Source of the DNA: an uncultured Eubacteriales bacterium
Lineage (GTDB): Bacteria; Bacillota; Clostridia; Christensenellales; CAG-138
Length of the DNA stretch: 32,410 bases
NCBI GenBank assembly: GCA_902802805.1
Contig: CADCNE010000002.1
Span: forward strand, 1 to 32,410
Direction: 5' to 3'
Numbering within the stretch: position 1 is the first letter of the stretch; each line of letters opens with the position of its first letter. Shown piece by piece: positions 16,030-27,595 of the stretch. The notes beneath the pieces are model-generated. The model saw nothing but the letters and a program-made list of their open reading frames with translations, made no database searches and was not told the origin of the DNA. The translations under genes were made by a program, and so were the position numbers.

Positions 16030-17280
16030 TTACGCCTCCCGGTTATAGAGGGGCTTCACGTGCCTCTTCCCGCCGCCGATGATGACGATGGCGGCGAGGA
16101 GGGCGATGCCCATGAAAACGGCCATAATGGTGCGCATGGGCAGGAACGTGGTGCAGGCTCCCGCCAGCGCTTCGCCGAGAAGGGACCCGGAGGTGGTCAG
16201 CATGATGAAGGCCCCGTTGAACCGGCCCTTCCGGTCGTGGGGCACGTAGGACTGGGTGGCGGAGGCGCGGATGGTGTAGGAGGTGACGCCCAGGATGCCC
16301 AGGAGGAAGCAGGCCACCCGCATGCCGTTCACGGGCAGGAACAGGTACGACCCGTGCAGCGTGTTCACGGCGCAATAGACCGCAAGGGTCAGGGCGTACT
16401 TGATGGCGGCGGGGTATTTGATCTTATACTGCAGCAGCCCCCCCATGGCCCGGCCCAGGACCATGAACCCCCAGGTGGTCATGTAGACCCATTCTCCGTT
16501 CTCAAAGGTGGATTTGAAGTAGGGCAGGGTGACGACGCTCTCGGCCCCGCCGGCGAAGGACAGGAACACGAAATACAGGGTGATGCACAGCAGGCCCTTC
16601 TCCGCCCACAGGTACCTGACCCCCTCCTTGGCGTCGCTCCAGTAAGCGGACAGGGAGTACGCGCCCACGGCGCCCAGGCCCTTCTCCTTCTCCACATCGG
16701 AGATCCGCGTCTCGCACAGGGCCGCCCCCAGGAAGCAGAGGCCGTTGACCAGCAGCAGGGGCGAGAGGCCGAACTGCTTGTAGAGGAACAGGGACACGGG
16801 CACCATGACCGCGCTCAGGGTCTCCAGGGTGCTGGCGATGGAATAGGCTTTGGAGAAGTTGCCCTCGGTGATGAGCATGGGGTAGAAGCTCTGATAGGCC
16901 ACCTGATAGGTGCTGTGGATGGTGCCGATGACCAGGGTCATGGCCGCCAGGAGCCAGAACCGCATGAGCCCCAGGTGCAGCACGAGAGCGATCAGCAGGT
17001 ACACCCCTGCCGACAGGAAGTCCAGGCTGTAGATGGTCTTGCGGCGGCTGAACCGGTCCATGAGGGGCCCGGCGATCAGCGGCGCGGCCAGCTGCGGCAA
17101 CGTGTAGAGGAACACGAACACCGCGTAATAGAGGGGCATGTCCGTATAGTCCAGCACAAACAGGCTGATGGCGAAGCCCGCCAGCGCGTTCCCGAACATG
17201 GAGATGACGCTGCCCACGGTGATGATGGTGAAGTCCCTGGTCCACAGGGAGGCTTGGCTTTTCTTTTCGGTATTTTCCAT
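16030..17280 (-). CDS. MFS transporter (EntS/MFS_3-like exporter)
   Basis: The 416-residue major facilitator has 12 predicted membrane helices. Helix 1 is FTIITVGSVISMFGNALAGF, and the cytoplasmic loop 2-3 signature is GPLMDRFSRRKTIYSLDFLSA. A central soluble linker, ISDVEKEKGLGAVGAYSLSAYWSDAKEGVRYLW, is typical of the MFS_3 exporter group, often drug or siderophore exporters. The substrate is unknown. There is no ribosome binding site: the -10 box TATACT ends six bases before the ATG, so the mRNA is predicted to be leaderless. No alternative start lies before helix 1. It is divergent from guanine deaminase. Confidence 0.9.
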   Translation of the reverse strand: MENTEKKSQASLWTRDFTIITVGSVISMFGNALAGFAISLFVLDYTDMPLYYAVFVFLYTLPQLAAPLIAGPLMDRFSRRKTIYSLDFLSAGVYLLIALVLHLGLMRFWLLAAMTLVIGTIHSTYQVAYQSFYPMLITEGNFSKAYSIASTLETLSAVMVPVSLFLYKQFGLSPLLLVNGLCFLGAALCETRISDVEKEKGLGAVGAYSLSAYWSDAKEGVRYLWAEKGLLCITLYFVFLSFAGGAESVVTLPYFKSTFENGEWVYMTTWGFMVLGRAMGGLLQYKIKYPAAIKYALTLAVYCAVNTLHGSYLFLPVNGMRVACFLLGILGVTSYTIRASATQSYVPHDRKGRFNGAFIMLTTSGSLLGEALAGACTTFLPMRTIMAVFMGIALLAAIVIIGGGKRHVKPLYNREA

Positions 17281-17286
17281 GGCGGC

Positions 17287-17315
17287 AGTATAGCACAGAG
17301 GCCCCCTCGGCGCAA
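17287..17315 (-). promoter_or_regulatory. Promoter placing the MFS start codon at +1
   Basis: On the minus strand TTGCGC (17310-17315) and TATACT (17287-17292) have a 17-base spacer. Counting from the -10 box, +1 falls on 17280, the A of the ATG. Confidence 0.75.
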
Positions 17316-17342
17316 GATGGGCTCCGGGGGCCGAAAACGCGC

Positions 17343-17371
17343 TTGCGGAATGGGCGTCCGTGGAGTATCAT
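17343..17371 (+). promoter_or_regulatory. Promoter of guanine deaminase
   Basis: TTGCGG (17343-17348) and TATCAT (17366-17371) are 17 bases apart, 31 bases before the ATG at 17403. Confidence 0.65.
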
Positions 17372-17402
17372 GATGCCATCAGAGAGCAGGGGAGGCGCGA
17401 AC

Positions 17403-18653
17403 ATGCAGCTATTCCACGGGAACATCGTCTACTCGAAGGACAGAACATCCCTGGCGGTCCATCAGGACAGCTGGCTGGGGGTGGAGAACGGGACCGTCGC
17501 GGGCATCTGGCCCCGGGTGCCGGAGCAGTACGCAGGCGCGCCCGTGACGGAGCTGGGGCAGGGGGTCCTGATCCCCGCCTTCTCCGACCTGCACGTCCAC
17601 GCTCCCCAGTACCTGAACCGGGGCCTCGAGATGGACCTTCTGCTACAGGACTGGCTGGAACAGTGCACCTTCCCCATGGAGGCTCGGTTCCGGGACCTGG
17701 ACTTTGCCAAACGGGTCTATGACGCCTTCGTGGATGACATGGTGGCCAACGGCACCCTCCACGCCTGCGTCTTCGGCTCCGTCCACCGCCCCGCCACCGG
17801 CTACCTGCTGGAGCGCATGGACATGCTGGGCCTGAAGGGCTTCGTGGGCAAGGTCAACATGGACCGTAACGCCTCATCGGATCTGCTGGAAACGGTGGAA
17901 GACTCCCTGAAGGAGACGGAGGCCTTTCTGGAAGCCTATGCCCAAAACCGGCACACGAAGCCCATCCTGACGCCCCGGTTCGCCCCCACCTGCACGGGGG
18001 AGCTGATCGCCGGCCTCGGCAGGCTGGGCAAAAAATACGGCGTGGGGGTCCAGACCCACCTGGTGGAATCCCACTGGGAGGCCGAGACCGCCCGGGCCCT
18101 GTTCCCGGAGCGGTCCTGCGACACGGAGATCTACGAGCGGGCGGGTCTCATGGACAACGGGCCCGTGGTGGGCGCTCACTTCATCTTTCCCACAGAGGCG
18201 GACACACAGATCCTCCTGCGCCACGGCGGGTATGCGGTCCATTGTCCCGATGCCACCGTCAGCATCATCGCCGGGATCATGGAGACCGGTGCCCTTCTCG
18301 ACCGGGGCGTGCGGATCGCCCTGGGCAGCGACATCTCCGGCGGCCACCACGTGGGCGTCTACACCCAGGCCGGTCGGGCGGTGCAGCTCAGCAAGCTCAA
18401 ACAGTTCTACGAGCCGGCGGGCAATCGCAAGCTCAGCTTCCCGGAGGCCTTCTTCATGGCCACCCGGCAGGGCGGGGCCCTGTTCGGGAAGGTGGGCGCC
18501 TTCGAGCCGGGGTACGCCTTCGACGCCCTCATCATCGACGGCCTCCATGACGAAGCGCGGGCCCTGACGCCGGAACAGGCAGTGGAGCGCTTCTGCTACA
18601 TCGGTACCCCCGCCAACATCCGGGCCCGCTATTTGGACGGCGAACGGATCTGA
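17403..18653 (+). CDS. guaD: Guanine deaminase
   Basis: The zinc amidohydrolase converts guanine to xanthine and ammonia. The 416-residue product carries the family motifs in order: DLHVHAPQYLNRG (His64 and His66 metal ligands, 62-74), GKVNMDRNASSDL, LTPRFAPTCTGEL, the metal histidine in QTHLVESHWE, VVGAHFIF, HCPDATVSI and the metal aspartate in GSDISGGHH. These distinguish guanine deaminase from chlorohydrolase and cytosine-deaminase relatives. The ATG at 17403 follows GGGGAGG. No other purine catabolic genes are adjacent. The divergent MFS exporter may or may not be related. Confidence 0.93.
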   Translation: MQLFHGNIVYSKDRTSLAVHQDSWLGVENGTVAGIWPRVPEQYAGAPVTELGQGVLIPAFSDLHVHAPQYLNRGLEMDLLLQDWLEQCTFPMEARFRDLDFAKRVYDAFVDDMVANGTLHACVFGSVHRPATGYLLERMDMLGLKGFVGKVNMDRNASSDLLETVEDSLKETEAFLEAYAQNRHTKPILTPRFAPTCTGELIAGLGRLGKKYGVGVQTHLVESHWEAETARALFPERSCDTEIYERAGLMDNGPVVGAHFIFPTEADTQILLRHGGYAVHCPDATVSIIAGIMETGALLDRGVRIALGSDISGGHHVGVYTQAGRAVQLSKLKQFYEPAGNRKLSFPEAFFMATRQGGALFGKVGAFEPGYAFDALIIDGLHDEARALTPEQAVERFCYIGTPANIRARYLDGERI

Positions 18654-18661
18654 AGGCACAC

Positions 18662-18707
18662 AAAAAAGCACCGGGTCAGGTCAGAGGACCGACTCGGCGC
18701 TTTTTTT
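18662..18707. terminator. Terminator between guaD and the zinc-ribbon genes
   Basis: GCACCGGGTC pairs with GACTCGGCGC, with one mismatch and one wobble, enclosing an inner GGTC-AGAG-GACC hairpin. It is flanked by A6 and T7, so it works in both directions. Confidence 0.88.
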
Positions 18708-18718
18708 GTTTAGATGTC

Positions 18719-19246
18719 TTACGCGAACAGGGCCTCGATCAGCCGCTCCACCGCCGGGATGAACTGCCCGAGGGCATCGCTGAGGAGGCGGCCGTTGCGC
18801 ACCATGGCCACGATGGCGAGGGCCAGCACCACGATCCAGAACAGCAGCCGCAAAATCAGCATGGCCGCGGAGAACCGCTTCAGACTCCCGTTTTTGGGAT
18901 GGCCCGCGCCGAAGATGAACAGGAAGATGAGGCCGATCACCGGGAGACTGTACAGCAGGCCCAGCGCCAGGTACTGGAAGGTGGACAGCATCTGCTTTTT
19001 GGACGGTACCTGGGTGACGACGGGCATGTCGGTGGCCGCAGGCGCTTCGGGCTGTACGGGCTCCGCCGCCGGCGCGGGGGCTGCCGCGGGCTCCACGGGC
19101 GCTTCCGCCGCAATGGGGGCTTCTGCTGTAACAGGGGCTTCCGCCGGGGTCACCACAGGCGCATCCTCCGGCAGGACCTTGCCGCACTCCCCGCAGAACT
19201 TGGCGTCGTCAGCGAGTTCACTGCCGCAATAGGGACACTGCTTCAT
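18719..19246 (-). CDS. Zinc-ribbon membrane protein with Ala/Pro-rich linker
   Basis: The 175-residue protein has three parts. An N-terminal zinc ribbon, CPYCGSELADDAKFCGECG (residues 4-22), has two CxxC knuckles. A low-complexity linker (about 28-80) is rich in Ala, Pro and Glu with repeated EAPV/EAPI units. The C-terminal half has two hydrophobic segments (about 88-113 and 126-148), separated by GAGHPKNGSLKRFSAAML. Such zinc_ribbon_2 membrane proteins are common and mostly uncharacterised in Bacillota. It is the second gene of a two-gene operon; its partner also begins with a zinc ribbon, 11 bases upstream. Confidence 0.82.
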   Translation of the reverse strand: MKQCPYCGSELADDAKFCGECGKVLPEDAPVVTPAEAPVTAEAPIAAEAPVEPAAAPAPAAEPVQPEAPAATDMPVVTQVPSKKQMLSTFQYLALGLLYSLPVIGLIFLFIFGAGHPKNGSLKRFSAAMLILRLLFWIVVLALAIVAMVRNGRLLSDALGQFIPAVERLIEALFA

Positions 19247-19257
19247 GATGGGGCTCC

Positions 19258-19674
19258 TTACTTGATGATGGTGGGCAGACCCTTCACGAAGGGCAGGTAG
19301 GCGCCGCTGCCCTTGAGGGCGCGGACGATGCCGATGATCTCACAGACCAGCAGGAACAGGCTCCCGATGGCGGCCACCAGCCAGCCCAGGATGGGGATGA
19401 TGCACACGAGACCACAGAGCAGGGACCCGATGAAGATCCACAGGGCCTGGTTGGTGTGGTGCATGGCGTAGGCGGAGTTCCGGGCGCCCAGCATGGGCAG
19501 GATGCCGCAGGTCAGGTAACCCAGCATGGCCAGCATCCGGTTGTCGGCGATGTCCTGCGCGTCAAACTGGGGGTCGGTGCTGACGGGCACCGTGATCACG
19601 GTCTCCTTGCCGCAGGTGGGGCAGAAACGGACGTCATCGGCGATCTCGGCGCCGCAGTGAGGACAATACTTCAT
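19258..19674 (-). CDS. Zinc-ribbon protein with Tic20/DUF4870-like membrane domain
   Basis: The 138-residue protein begins with CPHCGAEIADDVRFCPTCG (residues 4-22), a two-knuckle zinc ribbon nearly matching that of the gene after it. A short linker precedes a membrane domain with ADNRMLAMLGYLTCGILPML, NSAYAMHHTNQALWIFIGSLLCGLVCIIPILGWLVAAIGSLFLLVCEIIGIVRA, similar to DUF4870/Tic20-like proteins (the MHHTNQAL segment resembles the conserved H-x-x-Q-A motif). The function is unknown. AGGAGGG precedes the ATG. A -10 box TATACT is visible at 19707-19712 on the minus strand, with no clear -35 box. Confidence 0.82.
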   Translation of the reverse strand: MKYCPHCGAEIADDVRFCPTCGKETVITVPVSTDPQFDAQDIADNRMLAMLGYLTCGILPMLGARNSAYAMHHTNQALWIFIGSLLCGLVCIIPILGWLVAAIGSLFLLVCEIIGIVRALKGSGAYLPFVKGLPTIIK

Positions 19675-19751
19675 GAATAATTCCCTCCTATTTGGATTCT
19701 GTGAACAGTATACACCGGCTTTTTCGGCAAAACCAGTCGGTTTTTGTGAAC

Positions 19752-22148
19752 TTATTGTCTCAAGGGTGCGCCATTTTCAGCCAGCACCCGTATGATGGTC
19801 TCGAAGGCCTTTTTGATCTCCTCGTCCGTGAGGGTGTGATCCTCCGCTCTGAGGGTGAAGGTGATGGCGAGGCTCTTCTTCCCGAGGCCCACGGCGGGAC
19901 CCCGGTACACGTCGAACAGCCGACCCTTTTCCACGATCACGTCCACCGGCGCTTTTTCGATGATCTCGATCCAGTGGGCGCTCTCGCTCTCCTCCGGCAC
20001 CACGATGGCCAGGTCCCTACTCACCACCGGGAACCGGGGCAGGGGCTGGAAGGCGGGAGTATCCACGGACAGCCCGAGGATGGCGCTGAAGCTCAGCTCC
20101 GCCATATACACCGGCCCGGGCACGTCCCAGACGTTCAGCACGTCGGGGTGCACCTGACCGAGCTCGCCCAGCTTCTTTCCGTCTACCTTCACGTCCGCCC
20201 GGCGGCCCGGCTGGAAGCAGTCGATCCCGTTCTTCTCGAACTTGACGCCCCGGATGCCGAAGCGGCCCAGCAGGGTCTCGATGACGCCCTTGAGGGTGTA
20301 GAAGCTCTCCTGTTCGCCGAAGAAGATGAGGCCGATCTTTTTCTCCTCCCGGGGCAGCAGGTCGCCCCCCAGGTCGAAGTGGACGTTGCCCACCTCCATG
20401 AACCGGCCGTAGCCGGTCTTGCGGCGGATGTTCCGGGCGGCGGAGTCCAGCATGCCCATGTAGAGGGTGGTGCGCATAAGGCTCTGGTCCTCGCCGAAGG
20501 GATTCAGGAGCTTCACGGCGTTGTTCCGCTCGTCGCCCTCCGCAAAGGAGAGGGCCTTGAGGGCGTTGGGTCCGGTGAAGTTGTAGTTGTACATCTCGAG
20601 GCACCCGCAGGCCACCAGCACGTCCTTGGTCTTGTCCTCGGCCTGGAACTCCCGGGCCAGGGAACCCTGGAAGGTGTCGCCGTTCATGAGCACGGCGGGG
20701 ATGTTCTCGAAGCCGTAGATGCGGCCCACCTCTTCGGCGATGTCTGCGTCCGCCTCGATGCCGCTTTCGATATCCGTGCGGTAGTGAGGGATCACCACGT
20801 GGAGGTTGTTGCCGCTGGCTTTCGCCGGGACCTCGATGGTGTCGAGAAGCTTCGCCATCTCGTCGCCGCTGAGCTTCGTGTTGAGGATCCGGTTCACGTG
20901 ATCCACGTCCACGTCGATCTCCCGGTCGACGAGGTCCGCACTGCACACGTCGATGGTGCCGCCCACGATTCTGCCCGCGTGGAGCTCAGAGACCAGCTCG
21001 ATGCACCGCTCCAACGCGAGATACGCGTTCACGGGCTCTACGCCCTTGATGAACCGGGCCGCGGCGTCGGTCACGTGGCGGAGCTTGCGGGCCGTGCGGC
21101 GGATGTTGCTGGCCTTGAAGGCGGCGGACTCGAAGAACACCGCCTGGGTGTTCTCGGTGATCTCGCTGTTCAACCCGCCCATGACGCCGGCCACGCCCAC
21201 GCCGCCCTGGGGGTCGGAGATGAGGAGCATGTCCTTGTCCATGACCCGCTCCTTCTTATCGAGGGTCACCACCACCTCGCCCTCCTTGGCGTTGCGGACG
21301 ATGATGTGCCCGTCCCGGATGCAGGCCGCGTCGAAGGCGTGGGTGGGATGACCGTACTCCACCAGCACGTAGTTGGTGATGTCCACGATGTTGCTGATGG
21401 GCCGCATGCCCATCTGTTTGAGCCGCCGCTGCATCCAGGCGGGGGAGGGGCCGATCTTAAGGTCCACCGCCGCCCGGCCGGTGTACCGGGGGCACAGGTC
21501 CCCGTTCTCCACGGTGACCTTCATGATGTCGTTCACGTCCCCCTCGCCCTTGATGTGGGGGATGATGGGGGTCTTCATCTTCTGGCCGAGAGCCGCCGCC
21601 GCCTCACGGACGAGGCCGATGATACTGTTGCAGTCGGGCCGGTTGGGGAGCACGGAGAAGTCGAAGATCACGTCGTTGCGGTCGATGGCCTCCTCGATGG
21701 AGATGCCGAGGGGGGTGTCCTCCCGGAGGATCAGGATGCCGTCCACCTCCGCGCCGGGATATTCCACGTCGCTGAGGTTGAACTCCTGGCCGGAGCAGAA
21801 CATGCCCTGGCTCTCCACGCCGCGGATGTTCGCCACGGTGAACTCGTGGCTGCCGATCTTCGCGCCGGCGTAGGCTACCGGCACCACGGCCCCCACGAAC
21901 ACGTTGGTGGCGTTGGTCAGGATCTGGGCGGTCTTCCCGCCGATATCCACCTGACAGACGGTGAGCTTGTCGGCGTTGGGATGCTTCTCCATGGACAGGA
22001 TCTTGCCGGTGATGACACCGGACACGCCGGCGAGCTCCTTTTCCACGCCCTCCAGCTCGAAGCCGCGCCACATCATGCGCTCGATGAATTCCTCATCGGT
22101 CACGTTGAAATCCACATAGTCCTGCAGCCAGGTTTTCGGAAGTCTCAT
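19752..22148 (-). CDS. pheT: Phenylalanine-tRNA ligase beta subunit
   Basis: This is the beta subunit of the alpha2-beta2 enzyme that charges tRNA-Phe. The 798-residue product starts MRLPKTWLQDYVDF. It has the tRNA-binding OB domain with ILSMEKHPNADKLTVCQVDIGG (about 50-72), the GVESQGMFCSGQEF segment, the B3/B4 editing domain, the B5 domain, GVAGVMGGLNSEI, and the C-terminal anticodon-binding domain (about 705-798, PRFPVVSRDLAIVVP to HTLTDEEI). Length is normal. AAAGGAGG precedes its ATG, 18 bases after the pheS stop. It is controlled with pheS by the T-box upstream. Confidence 0.97.
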   Translation of the reverse strand: MRLPKTWLQDYVDFNVTDEEFIERMMWRGFELEGVEKELAGVSGVITGKILSMEKHPNADKLTVCQVDIGGKTAQILTNATNVFVGAVVPVAYAGAKIGSHEFTVANIRGVESQGMFCSGQEFNLSDVEYPGAEVDGILILREDTPLGISIEEAIDRNDVIFDFSVLPNRPDCNSIIGLVREAAAALGQKMKTPIIPHIKGEGDVNDIMKVTVENGDLCPRYTGRAAVDLKIGPSPAWMQRRLKQMGMRPISNIVDITNYVLVEYGHPTHAFDAACIRDGHIIVRNAKEGEVVVTLDKKERVMDKDMLLISDPQGGVGVAGVMGGLNSEITENTQAVFFESAAFKASNIRRTARKLRHVTDAAARFIKGVEPVNAYLALERCIELVSELHAGRIVGGTIDVCSADLVDREIDVDVDHVNRILNTKLSGDEMAKLLDTIEVPAKASGNNLHVVIPHYRTDIESGIEADADIAEEVGRIYGFENIPAVLMNGDTFQGSLAREFQAEDKTKDVLVACGCLEMYNYNFTGPNALKALSFAEGDERNNAVKLLNPFGEDQSLMRTTLYMGMLDSAARNIRRKTGYGRFMEVGNVHFDLGGDLLPREEKKIGLIFFGEQESFYTLKGVIETLLGRFGIRGVKFEKNGIDCFQPGRRADVKVDGKKLGELGQVHPDVLNVWDVPGPVYMAELSFSAILGLSVDTPAFQPLPRFPVVSRDLAIVVPEESESAHWIEIIEKAPVDVIVEKGRLFDVYRGPAVGLGKKSLAITFTLRAEDHTLTDEEIKKAFETIIRVLAENGAPLRQ

Positions 22149-22166
22149 GCTTTCGTCCTCCTTTTC

Positions 22167-23189
22167 TTAGAACTGGGTCAGGAAGCGGGCGTCGTTCTCG
22201 TATTCGTAGCGAATGTCCGAGATGCCGTACTTCAGGCTGGTCACCCGGTCCACGCCCACGCCGAAGGCGAAGGCGGACCACTCCTTGGGATCGAGGCCGC
22301 AGTTTTCAAGCTCGTGGGGGTTGGTCATGCCGCAGCCCAGGATCTCGATCCAGCCCGTGCCCTTGCACACCCGGCAGCCCTTGCCGCCGCAGATGGTGCA
22401 GCTCATGTCGAGCTCGGCGGAAGGCTCCGTGAAGGGGAAGTAGGAGGGACGGAGCCTGGTCTTCACGTGCTCCCCGAACACGGCGTGGATGAAGGCGTCC
22501 AGCGTGCCCTTCAGGTTGGCGAGGTTCAGATTTTTGTCCACCACGAAGCCCTCGATCTGCATGAACACGGGGCTGTGGGAGGCGTCCACCTCGTCCACCC
22601 GGAACACGCGGCCGGGCATCAGGAAGCGGAAGGGGGGCTTGAAATTCTGCAGGGCCCGGATCTCGCAGGGAGAGGTATGGGTCCTCAAAAGCACCTTGTC
22701 GTTGATGTAGAAGGTGTCCTGCATGTCCCTGGCCGGGTGGTCAAGGGGCAGGTTGAGCAGGGTGAAGTTGTTGTCGTCCAGCTCGATCTCCGGCCCGTCG
22801 AACACCTGGAAGCCCATGCCGATGAGGGCGTCCCGGATGGTCCGATAGGTCTGGGTCATGGGGTGCAGGTGCCCCATTTGCACGGGGCTCACCCCCGCCT
22901 CGGTCACGTCCAGGGCTTCCCGCTCGAAGCGCAGCTCCTGGGCCTTCTTTCTAAACTCCGCCCGGCGCTCCTCCATGGCGGCCTCCAGCTCCTGCTTGAG
23001 CTTGTTCACGTTGGCGCCCAGCTGGGCCCGCTCCTCCTTGCCGAGCTTGCCCATGGTGCGGAGGATGGCGGTGAGCTCCCCGGCCTTGCCGAAGAGCTGC
23101 TGCTGCAATGCCTGAAGGTCGCATTCCTCCTGCATGGCGGCCAGCTTCTTCTGGGCCTCCTCCCGGATTCGATTGAGATCGTTTTCCAT
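22167..23189 (-). CDS. pheS: Phenylalanine-tRNA ligase alpha subunit
   Basis: This is the catalytic subunit of PheRS, 340 residues. The N-terminal coiled coil (1-100) binds tRNA. The class II catalytic core contains HPMTQTYRTIRDALIGMGFQ, DTFYI, LLRTHTSPCEIRAL, the motif 2 region FRVDEVDASHSPVFMQIEGFVVD and the motif 3 segment GFGV-like AFAFGVGVDRVTSLKYGISDIR. Four cysteines in SCTICGGKGCRVCKGTGW form the zinc-binding insertion seen in many Clostridia. The start at 23189 (MENDLNRIREEAQ) is chosen over the upstream frame extension because AAGGAG precedes it and the extension lies in the T-box terminator. Confidence 0.97.
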   Translation of the reverse strand: MENDLNRIREEAQKKLAAMQEECDLQALQQQLFGKAGELTAILRTMGKLGKEERAQLGANVNKLKQELEAAMEERRAEFRKKAQELRFEREALDVTEAGVSPVQMGHLHPMTQTYRTIRDALIGMGFQVFDGPEIELDDNNFTLLNLPLDHPARDMQDTFYINDKVLLRTHTSPCEIRALQNFKPPFRFLMPGRVFRVDEVDASHSPVFMQIEGFVVDKNLNLANLKGTLDAFIHAVFGEHVKTRLRPSYFPFTEPSAELDMSCTICGGKGCRVCKGTGWIEILGCGMTNPHELENCGLDPKEWSAFAFGVGVDRVTSLKYGISDIRYEYENDARFLTQF

Positions 23190-23474
23190 TCTTAGTCTCC
23201 TTCTTGTTTCTTCAAAATAAACCGCGCCCCGCCCAAAGGGACGAAGCGCGTCGTGGTACCACCCCAAGTTCGCCGCCGTGTTCAGCGGCCTTTGAAGCTA
23301 TATCGGGCTTTCCCGTCGCAAACTACTAAAAGTTGCGGCGTCAGCCGCAATCTTTTTTCCCTTGCGCCGCTCCCGGGCGAACCGCATCCCTTCCTCGGCG
23401 CCCCGCTTTCACCTTGCCGGAGCTCTCTTTGGCCGCCTGGGGGACCTTTTCCCGTTCCTCGCGTTGTTTTGACT
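23190..23474 (-). ncRNA. T-box leader, phenylalanine-specific
   Basis: On the minus strand the leader carries AGAGAGC and GGTGAAAGC stem I features, a specifier codon TTC (Phe, 23379-23381) followed by GCCCGGGAGC, and the T-box AACTTGGGGTGGTACCACG (about 23252-23270) with the UGGU that pairs the uncharged tRNA 3' end. A terminator (CGCGCTTCGTCCC with GGGCGGGGCGCG, 23223-23250, then T-rich) competes with the antiterminator. Uncharged tRNA-Phe should switch pheST on. Confidence 0.94.
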
Positions 23475-23478
23475 TCGG

Positions 23479-24342
23479 CTATTCTACCACCCGGGCTTCC
23501 CTTCCGTCAAGAGTAATTTGCACGGCGGGCACCTCGTCTGTCCGCAGCACCCGGGTGCCGACAAGGCCCAGCCGCAAAAGGACCTCTGCGGTGGGATGAC
23601 CGTACTCGTTGTTCCGGCCCACGGAGATGACGGACAGGGCGGGGAAGACCGCCCGGATAAAGCGCAGGGACGAGGAGCCGTTGGACCCGTGATGGCCCAC
23701 CTTCAGCACGTCGGCGGAGAGCTCCGACCGGTGGTAGCGAAAGAGCATGTACTCCTCAGTCTGCATGGTGGCGTCCGCCATGAATAGGGCGGCGTTGTCC
23801 CCATACGTGAGGCGGAGCACGGCTGAGCTGCCGTTCTCATCGTCATAGGCCCGGTTTTTAAGGGGGCTCAGCACCGTGAGGGCGGCTTCCCCGAAGGGAA
23901 AACGGTCGCCCTCCTGCAAGGGCGTACAGGTCACGCCCCGGCGGCGGACCTTATTGAGCAGATCCCCGTAGTCCCCCTCGCTGCCGCCGAAATAGACCCG
24001 GGGCACGTCGAACCGGCGCACCAGGGTCAGCAGGTTCCCCGTGTGGTCCGCATGGCCGTGGGTGACGAAGATGGCGTCCAGCCGGTCCACGTCCAGCGCG
24101 TGGAGCTGGTCCACCAGATGGTCCCGGCTCTCGAAGGGGCCGGTGTCGATCATGATCCGCTCTCCGGTGGGAAAGGCGATGAGACAGGCGTCCCCCTGGC
24201 CTACGGCAATGAACAGCAGGTCCACCTTGTCCGGCTCCAGGGCGCCTTGGTACAGCGCCGCCGGGTCCGCGGTCACCTTCGGCTGGCGACAGCCGAAAAG
24301 CAGCAGAAGAAGTATTAGGAATAAGGAAAGGGCTCGCTTCAT
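23479..24342 (-). CDS. ComEC-like metallo-beta-lactamase-fold lipoprotein
   Basis: The 287-residue exported hydrolase has a lipoprotein signal peptide at residues 1-17 ending in the lipobox LLFG-C18. The metallo-beta-lactamase domain resembles the C-terminal domain of ComEC/Rec2: FIAVGQGDACLIAFPTGERIMIDTGP, the metal-binding THGHADHTGN (His95, His97, Asp99, His100), LKVGHHGSNGSSS and SVGRNNEYGHPTAEVL. Such stand-alone proteins may degrade nucleic acid or nucleotides outside the membrane; the substrate is unproven. The start overlaps the trmO stop by four bases (ATGA), so both are made from one transcript. The pheST promoter overlaps its 3' end. Confidence 0.9.
   Translation of the reverse strand: MKRALSLFLILLLLLFGCRQPKVTADPAALYQGALEPDKVDLLFIAVGQGDACLIAFPTGERIMIDTGPFESRDHLVDQLHALDVDRLDAIFVTHGHADHTGNLLTLVRRFDVPRVYFGGSEGDYGDLLNKVRRRGVTCTPLQEGDRFPFGEAALTVLSPLKNRAYDDENGSSAVLRLTYGDNAALFMADATMQTEEYMLFRYHRSELSADVLKVGHHGSNGSSSLRFIRAVFPALSVISVGRNNEYGHPTAEVLLRLGLVGTRVLRTDEVPAVQITLDGREARVVE
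23481..23510 (-). promoter_or_regulatory. pheST promoter inside the end of the upstream gene
   Basis: TTGACG (23505-23510) and TAGAAT (23481-23486) are 18 bases apart on the minus strand. The boxes lie within the last ten codons of the metallo-beta-lactamase gene; the -10 overlaps its stop codon (23479-23481). Confidence 0.75.
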
Positions 24343-25028
24343 GGCGCCACCACGTCGAAGACCTTCACCACCCCGTCCTCCACGTAGAACCGCACGTCCT
24401 TCCCGGCGTAGGGGAAGCCGTAGGGGTCGCTGCGGCCGGTGAGATACCCGGGCCGGGGGTCCAGGGAGAGGGAGGCGAGGAGAGCGGGCCGCTTCTCCTC
24501 CGGGATGCGGTCAAGGAGCTCCGCCGGGAACTCCACGGGCAGCCGCTCCTCCACATGGTCCTCCGCGAAGCCGTTCTGAGCGTCGGGATGGCTGTCCGTG
24601 AAGGATAGGTAAGGCTTGATGTCGTAGATGGGGGACCCGTCCATGAGATCCGCCCCGGAAACCACCAGAACCGTGCCGAGACCCGCCCGCTTTTCCAGGC
24701 GCACCAGCTTCACGGAGCTGAGCCCCAGGGGGTTGGGCCGAAAGGGGGAGCGGGTGGCGAAGACCCCCATGCGGGTGTTCCCCCCCAGCTTGGGCGGCTT
24801 CACCGTGGGGGACCAGCCCTCCTGATGCACCTTTGAAAAGCCCCAGATGAGCCACAGGTGGCTGTAGCCTTCGAGGCCGCGGAGAGCGTTCTCGTCCCGG
24901 TACTCCGGCTCGAACACGATGACGGCCTCCTGCTCAGGCACCAGATTGCTCTGCCGGGGGATGCCGAATTTGCTGGTGAAGTCGCTCCGGACGCGGGCGA
25001 TCACATGTAACGACAAAGTTTCTTCCAT
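24339..25028 (-). CDS. trmO: tRNA (N6-threonylcarbamoyladenosine-37) methyltransferase TrmO
   Basis: TrmO (TsaA/YaeB family) uses SAM to methylate t6A37 in tRNA-Thr to m6t6A. The 229-residue protein has the N-terminal beta-barrel domain typical of the family, with GYSHLWLIWGFSK (about 53-65) and the signature GNTRMGVFATRSPFRPNPLGLSSVKLV (about 83-109), followed by GSPIYDIKPYLSFTDS. A family-specific C-terminal domain holds DPRPGYL. There is no ribosome binding site before the ATG at 25028, and the promoter places +1 within one base of the A, so a leaderless mRNA is predicted. A tRNA-Thr(GGU), the usual substrate, is encoded about 3 kb away. Confidence 0.92.
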   Translation of the reverse strand: MEETLSLHVIARVRSDFTSKFGIPRQSNLVPEQEAVIVFEPEYRDENALRGLEGYSHLWLIWGFSKVHQEGWSPTVKPPKLGGNTRMGVFATRSPFRPNPLGLSSVKLVRLEKRAGLGTVLVVSGADLMDGSPIYDIKPYLSFTDSHPDAQNGFAEDHVEERLPVEFPAELLDRIPEEKRPALLASLSLDPRPGYLTGRSDPYGFPYAGKDVRFYVEDGVVKVFDVVAP

Positions 25029-25035
25029 ACGTTAC

Positions 25036-25064
25036 AGTATACGCCCCCGGGACTGTCTTGACAA
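25036..25064 (-). promoter_or_regulatory. Promoter of trmO
   Basis: TTGTCA (25059-25064) and TATACT (25036-25041) have a 17-base spacer on the minus strand; +1 falls at 25029, next to the ATG. Its -35 lies on the same bases as the -35 of the divergent SPFH promoter. Confidence 0.75.
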
Positions 25065-25086
25065 GGCTGCGGCAAAATGATATCAT
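25058..25086 (+). promoter_or_regulatory. Promoter of the SPFH gene
   Basis: TTGACA (25058-25063) and TATCAT (25081-25086) have a 17-base spacer. The -10 box is embedded in a perfect palindrome. Confidence 0.85.
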
Positions 25087-25101
25087 TTTAATATCAAAAT
25101 A
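25074..25101. promoter_or_regulatory. Overlapping palindromic operator at the SPFH promoter
   Basis: AAAATGATATCATTTT (25074-25089) is a perfect 16-base palindrome over the -10 box. It overlaps a second, near-perfect one, ATTTTAATATCAAAAT (25086-25101). Two palindromes of the same ATAT-centred type over the start region indicate a repressor site. Confidence 0.65.
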
Positions 25102-25116
25102 AAGGAGATGAATCGC

Positions 25117-26124
25117 GTGAGAGAAAACGTCCTGAATTCCCGGAAGAACGGCATGGGCATGATGCTGCTGCTCATTTTGCTGCATCTGCTGGCGGTGGCG
25201 GGCCTCGCTGTGGGCATCGTCTATGAGTCCCTGGCCCTCATCATCCTGTGCATCCTGATCCTCAGCTTCGGCTGGATCCTGTTCTGCGGCCTCAAGGTAT
25301 TGAAGCCCCAGGAAGCTTTGGTGCTGACCCTCTTCGGCAAGTACGTGGGCACCCTGAAGGAGCCCGGCTTCTACTACGTGAACCCCTTCTGCACCGCCGT
25401 CAACCCTGCCGCCCAGACCAAGCTCAAGCAGAGCGGCGACGTGGACGCCAAGTCCGCCCCCATCGTCATCGGCCAGGGGAACGCCGCCGTCACCACGGCG
25501 GAAGCGGCCACCAAGAAGATCTCCCTGAAGATCATGACCCTCAACAACAACCGCCAGAAGATCAACGACTGTCTTGGCAACCCCGTGGAGATCGGCATCG
25601 CGGTCATGTGGCGGGTGGTGGACACGGCCAAGGCCGTCTTCAACGTGGACAACTATAAGGAATACCTGTCCCTCCAGTGCGACAGCGCCCTTCGGAACAT
25701 CGTGCGCAACTACCCCTACGACGTGGCCCCCAACGTGGACACCACCGGCGACGGCGTGGCGGACGAGGGGTCCCTCCGGGGCAGCAGCGAGGTGGTGGCC
25801 GAGCGCATCCGCCAGGAGATCCAGCAGAAGGTGACCGAGGCCGGCCTGGAGGTCATCGAGGCCCGCATCACCTATCTTGCGTACGCCCCGGAGATCGCCG
25901 CGGTCATGCTCCAGCGGCAGCAGGCCTCCGCCATCATCGACGCCCGGAAGATGATCGTGGACGGGGCCGTGGGCATGGTGGAGATGGCTTTGGACCGGCT
26001 CAAGGAGAACAATGTGGTGGATTTGGACGACGAGCGCAAGGCGGCCATGGTCTCGAACCTGCTGGTGGTCCTCTGCGGGAATCGGGACGCCCAGCCTGTG
26101 GTGAACTCCGGCAGCCTCTACTGA
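25117..26124 (+). CDS. SPFH/Band 7 domain membrane protein
   Basis: The protein has 335 residues from GTG 25117. Two adjacent hydrophobic segments near the N terminus (about residues 16-55) anchor it. A Band 7/SPFH domain follows: [33 protein letters not shown] (about 59-91), [28 protein letters not shown] and [12 protein letters not shown]. The helical part is [52 protein letters not shown] proteins form large cages or microdomains and often escort membrane proteases. GTG is preferred over the ATG at 25108 because AGGAG lies nine bases before the GTG but directly abuts the ATG. A ribbon-helix-helix gene follows after one base. Confidence 0.88.
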
Positions 26125-26125
26125 T

Positions 26126-26326
26126 ATGGCGGAGCTCGGCAAAAAACAGGTGCCCCTGCGGCTGTCGCCCAGGCTCTACGAGGAGCTCTCGGCCTGGGCG
26201 GAGGAGGACTTTCGCTCCGTGAACGGGCAGATCGAGTACCTGCTGACAGCCTGCGTCCGTCAGCACAAAAAGAACGGACGCCCCGTGCCGAAGTCCTTCG
26301 ATCCCACGGAAGAACAAAACGAATAG
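26126..26326 (+). CDS. Small ribbon-helix-helix (Arc-like) protein
   Basis: The 66-residue protein reads [20 protein letters not shown], then [19 protein letters not shown], which is the beta-strand plus two-helix plan of Arc/MetJ-type DNA-binding proteins; the VPLRL strand would contact DNA and [10 protein letters not shown] is the second helix. Its ATG follows the SPFH stop by one base and has no clear ribosome site of its own, so it relies on translational coupling. It may bind the palindromes before the SPFH gene and thereby regulate its own operon; this is inference. A terminator-like hairpin follows. Confidence 0.82.
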
Positions 26327-26330
26327 GATC

Positions 26331-26353
26331 AGGCGGCTCTCGGACCGCCTTTT
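26331..26353 (+). terminator. Terminator of the SPFH-RHH operon
   Basis: AGGCGG (26331-26336) pairs with CCGCCT (26345-26350) around an eight-base loop, followed by TTTCTGTTT. The T-tract is short, so termination may be partial. It ends five bases before the -35 of the next gene. Confidence 0.65.
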
Positions 26354-26357
26354 CTGT

Positions 26358-26386
26358 TTGTGCTGCGGCGCCAGCTGTGGTATACT
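26358..26386 (+). promoter_or_regulatory. Promoter placing the M15 peptidase start codon at +1
   Basis: TTGTGC (26358-26363) and TATACT (26381-26386) have a 17-base spacer, with an extended TGG before the -10. Counting from the -10, +1 is 26393, the A of the ATG. Confidence 0.75.
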
Positions 26387-26392
26387 TTTTCT

Positions 26393-27595
26393 ATGAAACG
26401 ATTGCTTATTTGCCTGCTGACAGGAACGCTCCTGCTGGCCATGGCCGCCGGGAGCCGGGGGGCAGAGGACCCGTCCGGGCTTGACCCATCGCCGCTGACG
26501 TTCACGGCGTCGGCGGACTATCCCCTGCCGGACGAGAGCACCGCCATCCACCAGGGCCGGTGCTTCTGGGTGGATGGGGTCGTGACCGGGTCCGGGTCCC
26601 TGCGATCGGTGTCGGCCCAGATCGTGGACGAGGCGGGGGAGACCGTCCGGGAGGCGGCCAGGACCTTCGCCCCGGAGGAGGACGTACACACGTACAGGCT
26701 CCTCGATCCCACCTTCTCGGCGGACGTCGACTGCATCAGCGAGGAACTGGCATTTCAGGACCTTTCCGTGGGCGGCTATGTCCTGCGCATCCGGGGCGCG
26801 CTGGGGGACGGGGAGGAGCAGCTCCTTGCCGAAAGCCCCTTCCGGGTGACCGACGACGCGTGGATACAGCTCCATCCCAACGACCTCAGGGGCAACTATA
26901 CCACTGCCCTGGCGTTTTTCGGGTCTCCGGAACGGTTTCTGTTCCGCTACAAGCTGCGGGAGAATTCCATCCGCATCGACGTGGACCCCCATTGGCTCAG
27001 GCAGTACCGGACGAAGGTCACCTGGCTGAAGGGGGTGGAGAAGTATTGCCATGTGGATGCCAAGCCCTACTTCAAGCAGGCCCGCCGCTACCTGGAGCAA
27101 ACCTACATCCATATCTCCGGCCCGGACTTCGACACGGGTGCCCTGCGGCTGTCCGCGCTGGAGGGCACTTTGAACGGCACCATGGTCTGCCGGTTCATGA
27201 GCAGCGGCCAGTTTTTGAGCCACCACTCCTTCGGCACCGCCATAGACATCAACGCGTTCTTTGACAGCCACACGAACAAGCTGGAGAACCGGGAGATCAT
27301 CTACCGCGAGGTCACAGAAAACCTGACCTACAACGGCATCGTGACGGTGAAGGGAAAGCAGTGCTACGACTTCACCTATACGGGCAGCGCCCCCCGGGAG
27401 GTGAAGAACGTGCCGGAGCCGCTGATGAACTATCTCATGTACGAGCTGGCGTTTTACCGTGCCGGGTTCTCCTGGGGCGCCTACTACCCCCATACCTGCG
27501 ACGCCATGCACTTCACCCTCACGGAGCTTTCCCCGGAGCTGTTCACCGACGGGCCGTACGCCATGCGGAAGGTGTTTGAGTATATAGACGAGTGA
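26393..27595 (+). CDS. Secreted M15-family D-Ala-D-Ala carboxypeptidase-like protein
   Basis: The 400-residue exported protein has a signal peptide at residues 1-23 (MKRLLICLLTGTLLLAMAAG). Residues 35-150 form a beta-rich domain of unknown function. The C-terminal catalytic domain is of the VanY/M15 type: QFLSHHSFGTAIDINAFF (zinc His278 and Asp285) and WGAYYPHTCDAMHFTL (second zinc His). It should trim D-alanine from peptidoglycan stem peptides or cleave cross-links outside the membrane. The ATG at 26393 is chosen because the signal peptide starts there; upstream codons lie in the promoter. There is no ribosome site, so the mRNA is predicted to be leaderless. A non-coding repeat region follows. 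Confidence 0.87.
   Translation: MKRLLICLLTGTLLLAMAAGSRGAEDPSGLDPSPLTFTASADYPLPDESTAIHQGRCFWVDGVVTGSGSLRSVSAQIVDEAGETVREAARTFAPEEDVHTYRLLDPTFSADVDCISEELAFQDLSVGGYVLRIRGALGDGEEQLLAESPFRVTDDAWIQLHPNDLRGNYTTALAFFGSPERFLFRYKLRENSIRIDVDPHWLRQYRTKVTWLKGVEKYCHVDAKPYFKQARRYLEQTYIHISGPDFDTGALRLSALEGTLNGTMVCRFMSSGQFLSHHSFGTAIDINAFFDSHTNKLENREIIYREVTENLTYNGIVTVKGKQCYDFTYTGSAPREVKNVPEPLMNYLMYELAFYRAGFSWGAYYPHTCDAMHFTLTELSPELFTDGPYAMRKVFEYIDE

Follow-up and report, generated by a model that had tools for sequence, protein, structure and literature searches.

The window analysed here, a stretch of 32,410 nucleotides on contig C2 of an uncultured Eubacteriales bacterium, holds three genes whose ATG lies only six or seven bases behind a TATACT hexamer, which raises the question of whether they are transcribed without a leader and translated without a ribosome binding site. 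An earlier note on this DNA had proposed that the three share one architecture (a -35 box, a 17-base spacer, TATACT, six or seven bases, ATG), and direct reading found this to be exact. The MFS transporter gene (16030..17280, minus strand; Pfam MFS_1 3.2e-21) has a weak -35 TTGCGC at 17310..17315, a 17 bp spacer, TATACT at 17287..17292 and 6 nt before ATG 17280, and is predicted to be leaderless. trmO (24339..25028, minus strand; TIGR00104 9.9e-41, Pfam TrmO_N 5.3e-44) has TTGTCA at 25059..25064, 17 bp, TATACT at 25036..25041 and 7 nt before ATG 25028, and is predicted to be leaderless or to carry a 1-nt leader; its product is a tRNA N6-threonylcarbamoyladenosine methyltransferase, with the TIGR00104 match above the cut-off and model position 4 at residue 5. 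The third, also predicted to be leaderless, is a gene of the peptidase M15 family (26393..27595, plus strand; Pfam Peptidase_M15_4 6.2e-9), where a weak -35 TTGTGC read directly at 26358..26363 is followed by 17 bp, TATACT at 26381..26386, 6 nt and ATG 26393, and where an N-terminus that looks signal-peptide-like by eye has its MKR start exactly at that ATG. Compared with TTGACA, the -35 boxes of the MFS and M15 genes match at 3/6 positions each and that of trmO at 5/6; the two weak boxes go with an extended -10 (TGC before TATACT in MFS, TGG in M15), and the stronger trmO promoter has no TGn.

The transcription starts predicted earlier, at 17280, 25029 and 26393, are arithmetically correct. 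None of eight SD-like words was found in the 17 bases ending 3 before each of the three ATGs, in agreement with the claim that they have no ribosome binding site. Almost all other starts in the window were said to have one. This was seen for 28 of 30 other gene pieces, of which a few probably match by accident; a stretch border splits one gene into two of these 30. The scan was a permissive 4-mer search of 33 gene pieces from a crude gene finder, 30 of which scored SD-like; dropped from these were a border-stretch piece with an empty upstream and the M15 gene, which scored at an internal ATG because the gene finder had mis-set its start. The three genes are mildly clustered, since a 32-kb window should hold 0.43 of them at a density of 28 per genome (P ~0.009). 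The surroundings hold other elements as well. A 16-bp palindrome, AAAATGATATCATTTT, lies at 25074-25089 between trmO and a divergent SPFH/Band_7 gene, nine bases upstream of the trmO -35, and ATGATATCA is found at a similar place upstream of trmO in the near relatives L091, L094 and L095; it is perhaps an operator. A short GC-rich hairpin with a T run behind it, recognised by eye at 26332-26353, is probably the terminator of the ribbon-helix-helix gene upstream; only a few bases separate its end from the M15 -35.

Sigma-A polymerase initiates about 7 bases downstream of the -10, most readily at a purine that follows a pyrimidine, and a 5′-terminal AUG can recruit ribosomes without an SD site. 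In the reading we favour, a housekeeping (sigma-A type) promoter would directly abut the start codon, so that RNA polymerase would start at the beginning of the ATG or directly before it: on the A itself in the 6-base cases (MFS, M15), and on the A or one base before it in 7-base cases such as trmO. The ribosome would then start on the 5′-terminal AUG with no SD site involved. Because transcription initiation in bacteria is not fixed relative to the -10 but shifts by a few bases, some transcripts may carry leaders of 1-3 nt, and additional promoters may give a second, leadered transcript.

The frequency of the arrangement was compared with chance in the genome of which the window is a part (2.12 Mb, 159 contigs, 93.5% complete). 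A genome-wide scan, as the earlier note had suggested, gave 38 matches to TATACT-N6/7-ATG vs 8 for the reversed pattern. Spacing was then looked at in a sample of 60 stretches of the same genome (1,059,169 bases, 985 predicted genes). TATACT stood before candidate ATG starts 15 times at a distance of 6 and 8 times at 7, vs 8 times in total over the eleven neighbouring spacings (1, 0 and 0 at distances 3-5; 3, 0, 1, 0, 1, 1, 0 and 1 at distances 8-15). This makes 23 observed against 1.45 expected at the two spacings (Poisson P ~5e-20), an expectation that leaves out spacings 0-2 (3, 0 and 2 cases) and would be ~1.9 with them. All 23 starts are ATG, with no GTG or TTG, indicating a preference for AUG; among strong-SD starts GTG or TTG is used in 82/621. 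A second, separate and broad peak of TATACT lies 20-36 bases (71 cases) ahead of ordinary SD-led starts, and ahead of strong-SD starts the peak is at 25-34 bases (41 cases). With the looser box TANNNT, 61 cases were seen at spacings 6 and 7 against ~28 expected from spacings 1-5 and 8-14; this excess of ~33 among 985 genes would put the leaderless share, weaker -10 boxes included, at perhaps ~3% of genes.

A frame of at least 100 aa is opened by 28 of the 38 genome matches, and the TATACT-type leaderless class in this genome is accordingly put at up to 28 genes. The 10 matches removed by this filter are near the control's 8 in number and are probably chance. The 28 look like sigma-A promoters: TTG is found at a spacer of exactly 17 in 15 of them and at most once at each of the remaining spacings between 10 and 25, and among 300 sampled TATACT hexamers TTG[ACT] occurs at spacer 17 in 74 and at other spacings in few. 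An extended -10 TGn precedes 14/28, vs 75/300 of all sampled TATACT. None of the eight SD-like words is present in 25/28, and the other 3 have a weak 4-base match. Base -1 is C or T in all 16 of the 6-base cases, compared with 73% of strong-SD ATG genes (P 0.006), a preference that is weakly informative because the strong-SD genes favour C or T too. Matches above the curated NCBIfam cut-off identify IspE, an NAD-dependent deacylase, MurB, MutY, a type I asparaginase, RpiB, YtvI, HflX, TrmO and a protein with NadD, YqeK and RsfS parts. Below the cut-off, with family resemblance only, are homologues of SpoIIR, PdaB, SpoVB, SleB, VanW, VanZ and RlmA, among others, and six of the 28 (L011, L012, L022, L024, L173 and the M15 gene) have no NCBIfam match at 1e-5. 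For seven products (IspE, deacylase, MutY, asparaginase, RpiB, NadD and TrmO) the family model begins at most 5 residues from the ATG; the HflX and MurB matches begin further in and carry little information on the start.

Conservation in relatives was examined for each of the three window genes, beginning with trmO in a set of 80 loci, 8 from near relatives and 72 others. The promoter is kept in all 8 near relatives (75-90% identical), with TTGTCA or TTGACA, 17 bp, TATACT, 6 or 7 nt and ATG, and the proteins align from residue 1 in all 8, bearing out the prediction that the homologues start at the same ATG. An SD-like word is also present at a candidate start in two of the 8 (L097 and L098). 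A -10-like box at that place was found in none of the 72 further homologues, where an SD-like word is present in 64 and neither signal in 8. For the MFS gene, eight genomes were searched, and TATACT-6/7-ATG is present in 6/6 close orthologues, whose proteins align from the same ATG, as had been predicted; of the two remaining genomes, one gave only a 24%-identical relative and the other none. TGn precedes TATACT in all six, and the -35 hexamers vary, with one orthologue (L182) having the identical TTGCGC and the other five different hexamers. In relatives L180, L181 and L184 the MFS promoter is directly preceded by terminator-like repeats.

For the M15 gene the arrangement is kept in one of the two syntenic orthologues, which have the same upstream gene: L190 (75% identical) has TTGCTT-17-TATATT-6-ATG, the -10 thus at the same spacing, and L191 (65% identical) shows no leaderless arrangement, having instead the SD-like AAAGGA ahead of what is probably its start codon. 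The predicted M15 start codon is backed by one syntenic orthologue that aligns from residue 1, and the leaderless reading of the gene is weaker, given the SD-like start in L191. L192 and L193 (59 and 57% identical) have a different upstream sequence, with a clear GGAGG in L193 and a GGAG ~12 bases before the likely start in L192. Three further relatives at 37-38% identity (L195, L196 and L199) have TTGCCC-17-TATGAT-10-ATG and an MKR start without an evident SD, which suggests that their leaders may be only a few bases long.

The set as a whole was compared with the relative G300, for which 50 of 51 TATACT-6/7-ATG matches were fetched; 38 passed the frame filter, and several of these look like chance frames. 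Among the fetched matches, 21 of the 28 class genes were found again with the arrangement, as pairs assigned by best blastp hit, and the other 7 do not recur. In 20/21 pairs both proteins align from residue 1, and the -10 to ATG spacing is identical in 20/21. Ungapped identity is 0.88 in the -35 (0.94 for its TTG), 0.60 in the spacer and 0.63 upstream of the -35; identity in the -10 follows from how the matches were selected and was given no weight.

Could the TATACT promoters be real while the main transcripts come from further upstream, by read-through or from a second promoter, so that the ATGs sit on leadered mRNAs? The M15 gene lies 66 bases behind the end of the same-strand ribbon-helix-helix gene (26126-26326), the MFS gene in relatives appears behind the end of a same-strand gene and a terminator-like repeat, and the -35 boxes of both are only 3/6 to consensus. 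Against this, the three ATGs have no SD, which would leave a leadered mRNA ill-suited to translation, and in the window trmO and MFS stand back to back with divergent genes (plus-strand starts 25117 and 17403), making same-strand read-through unlikely. Across the set, moreover, the -35, the -10 and the exact distance to the ATG are kept while the spacer drifts, and taken together we regard a mainly leadered origin as quite improbable. It is more improbable again that the ATGs are mis-assigned, with translation starting downstream and the -10 being that of an ordinary promoter with a short leader. The crude gene finder did set the trmO and M15 starts further downstream, and trmO has TTG or GTG codons beyond its ATG, but the residue-1 alignments in the trmO relatives and the G300 pairs argue for the upstream ATGs, as do the family models of NadD, asparaginase, MutY and RpiB, proteins with well-known starts, which begin a few residues from the ATG. 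For M15 the position of the signal-peptide-like MKR start argues the same way.

A coincidental pairing of hexamer and ATG, in a genome with many copies of TATACT, would account for the reversed control's matches and for the short frames among the 38, and the three genes had been picked by eye from one window. Set against the excess at spacings 6 and 7 in the sampled half genome and the retention of the arrangement in relatives, chance is refuted for the class and has next to no probability, while for an individual gene, M15 for example, coincidence may still be the explanation. An AT-rich translation signal other than a promoter was also considered and rejected, given the -35 at exactly 17 bp and the extended -10, and given that the same hexamer peaks 25-34 bases before SD-led starts. 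Weighing these points, we consider that the class, trmO and MFS are very probably genuinely leaderless, with a sigma-A promoter set against the start codon. Geometry and conservation support the promoter, and the transcription start and the ribosome step are what we infer; M15 alone is less certain. From the sequence comparisons, the arrangement appears to be kept by selection in this clade of uncultured gut Clostridia, in which most genes are SD-led. It could further be imagined that the leaderless genes form a functional regulon, translatable when SD-dependent initiation fails under stress, dormancy or ribosome damage. HflX, the NadD/YqeK/RsfS protein, the RlmA-like methyltransferase, TrmO and the sporulation and cell-wall homologues in the set would fit this, as would the same motif in a second species for 21/28, though we hold the idea to be unlikely.

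Counts across genomes show where the excess occurs. In the own genus there were 176 matches vs 45 for the control (4 genomes), in 19 other genomes of the family 586 vs 549, and in all 293 non-genus genomes of the order (of 297) 7633 vs 7766. The Bonferroni limit was passed by 11/297 genomes, including all 4 of the own genus; the others belong to f32 (G095, G112 and G241), f18 (G087), f6 (G143), f30 (G030) and f19 (G279). In a separate scan of the genomes of 46 of the 80 trmO loci, the 8 near relatives by trmO had 32-51 matches vs 6-15 in the control, and the highest ratio among the 38 others was 22 vs 10. For G304, the genome of L098, the count of 45 vs 13 is inflated by TATACTAGTTTTATG, which is listed ten times, suggesting a word carried by a repeated element. 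G297, G300 and G301 agree in size and counts with G081, G061 and G214, and were therefore treated as identical to them and given no additional weight. G087, from another family of the order, has the lowest P of the 297 (58 vs 9); of the 30 matches fetched out of its 58, 20 lead into a long frame. TTG stands at spacer 17 in 13 of those 20, and the N-termini of some resemble GlmM, NrdR and phosphofructokinase. A single weak blastp hit, 25% identical over 170 residues, connects these 30 of 58 matches with the genes of our genome, which suggests that the two sets may have arisen separately. In a scan across the class, none of 150 genomes from other orders exceeded 1.9 times its control (highest 17 vs 9 and 46 vs 25), which is no proof of absence, because ~30 true cases could hide where the control matches many.

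These results mean that sequence alone is enough to recognise a leaderless class in a clade of uncultured Clostridia and to predict its exact start bases. Start-codon callers can misplace such genes; of the three here, two (trmO and M15) were set wrongly by the crude gene finder. The predicted leaderless trmO of this clade and its mostly SD-like counterparts elsewhere offer natural pairs for asking why genes gain or lose leaders.

The open-access matches listed included no paper dealing with leaderless mRNAs of this clade, which does not imply that none is in print. In the survey of Zheng et al. 2011 (PMC3160421), according to the available part of its text, leaderless (TA-led) genes were found in 207/953 bacterial genomes, in Actinobacteria, Deinococcus-Thermus and some Firmicutes, the Firmicutes cases being 56/209 genomes, mostly Lactobacillales and Mycoplasma; no word beginning with "clostridi" occurs in that part. 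Like the TA-led genes described there, those discussed here have a -10-like hexamer whose first T is ~12 bp ahead of the start codon, lack an SD and are expected to have no 5′-UTR; unlike in that partial text, the signal comes here mostly from the single hexamer TATACT, and the clade is one of uncultured Clostridia. In the mouse gut, the accessible portion of a Cappable-seq study reports 10-15% leaderless starts in Akkermansia and Bifidobacterium, which of the four species analysed are the two named as rich in them, the Lachnospiraceae species not being one of these two (PMC4782308). As described in that portion, those cases resemble ours in being gut community members with transcription starting, in ours by prediction, at the start codon. 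The earlier note had called leaderless mRNAs rare in Clostridia, which is fair but needs softening: as given in the available extracts of the reports, mapped starts in Clostridium autoethanogenum (PMC6873888) include ~70 leaderless ones (~2%, 5′-UTR <10 nt), those in Clostridioides difficile (PMC7438776) point to 15 "potentially leaderless" genes, and those in Sporomusa (PMC12456013) include 7 leaderless cases. Leaderless mRNAs are thus already familiar, and Clostridia are among the groups with a few reported cases. Going by those extracts, C. autoethanogenum and C. difficile share with our genome both the class Clostridia and the small leaderless minority of genes; they differ in that their starts were mapped in isolates, while ours are predicted from sequence and conservation for a set common to several species. 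What is new here is this defined, predicted leaderless gene set, conserved between species of one uncultured gut Clostridia lineage.
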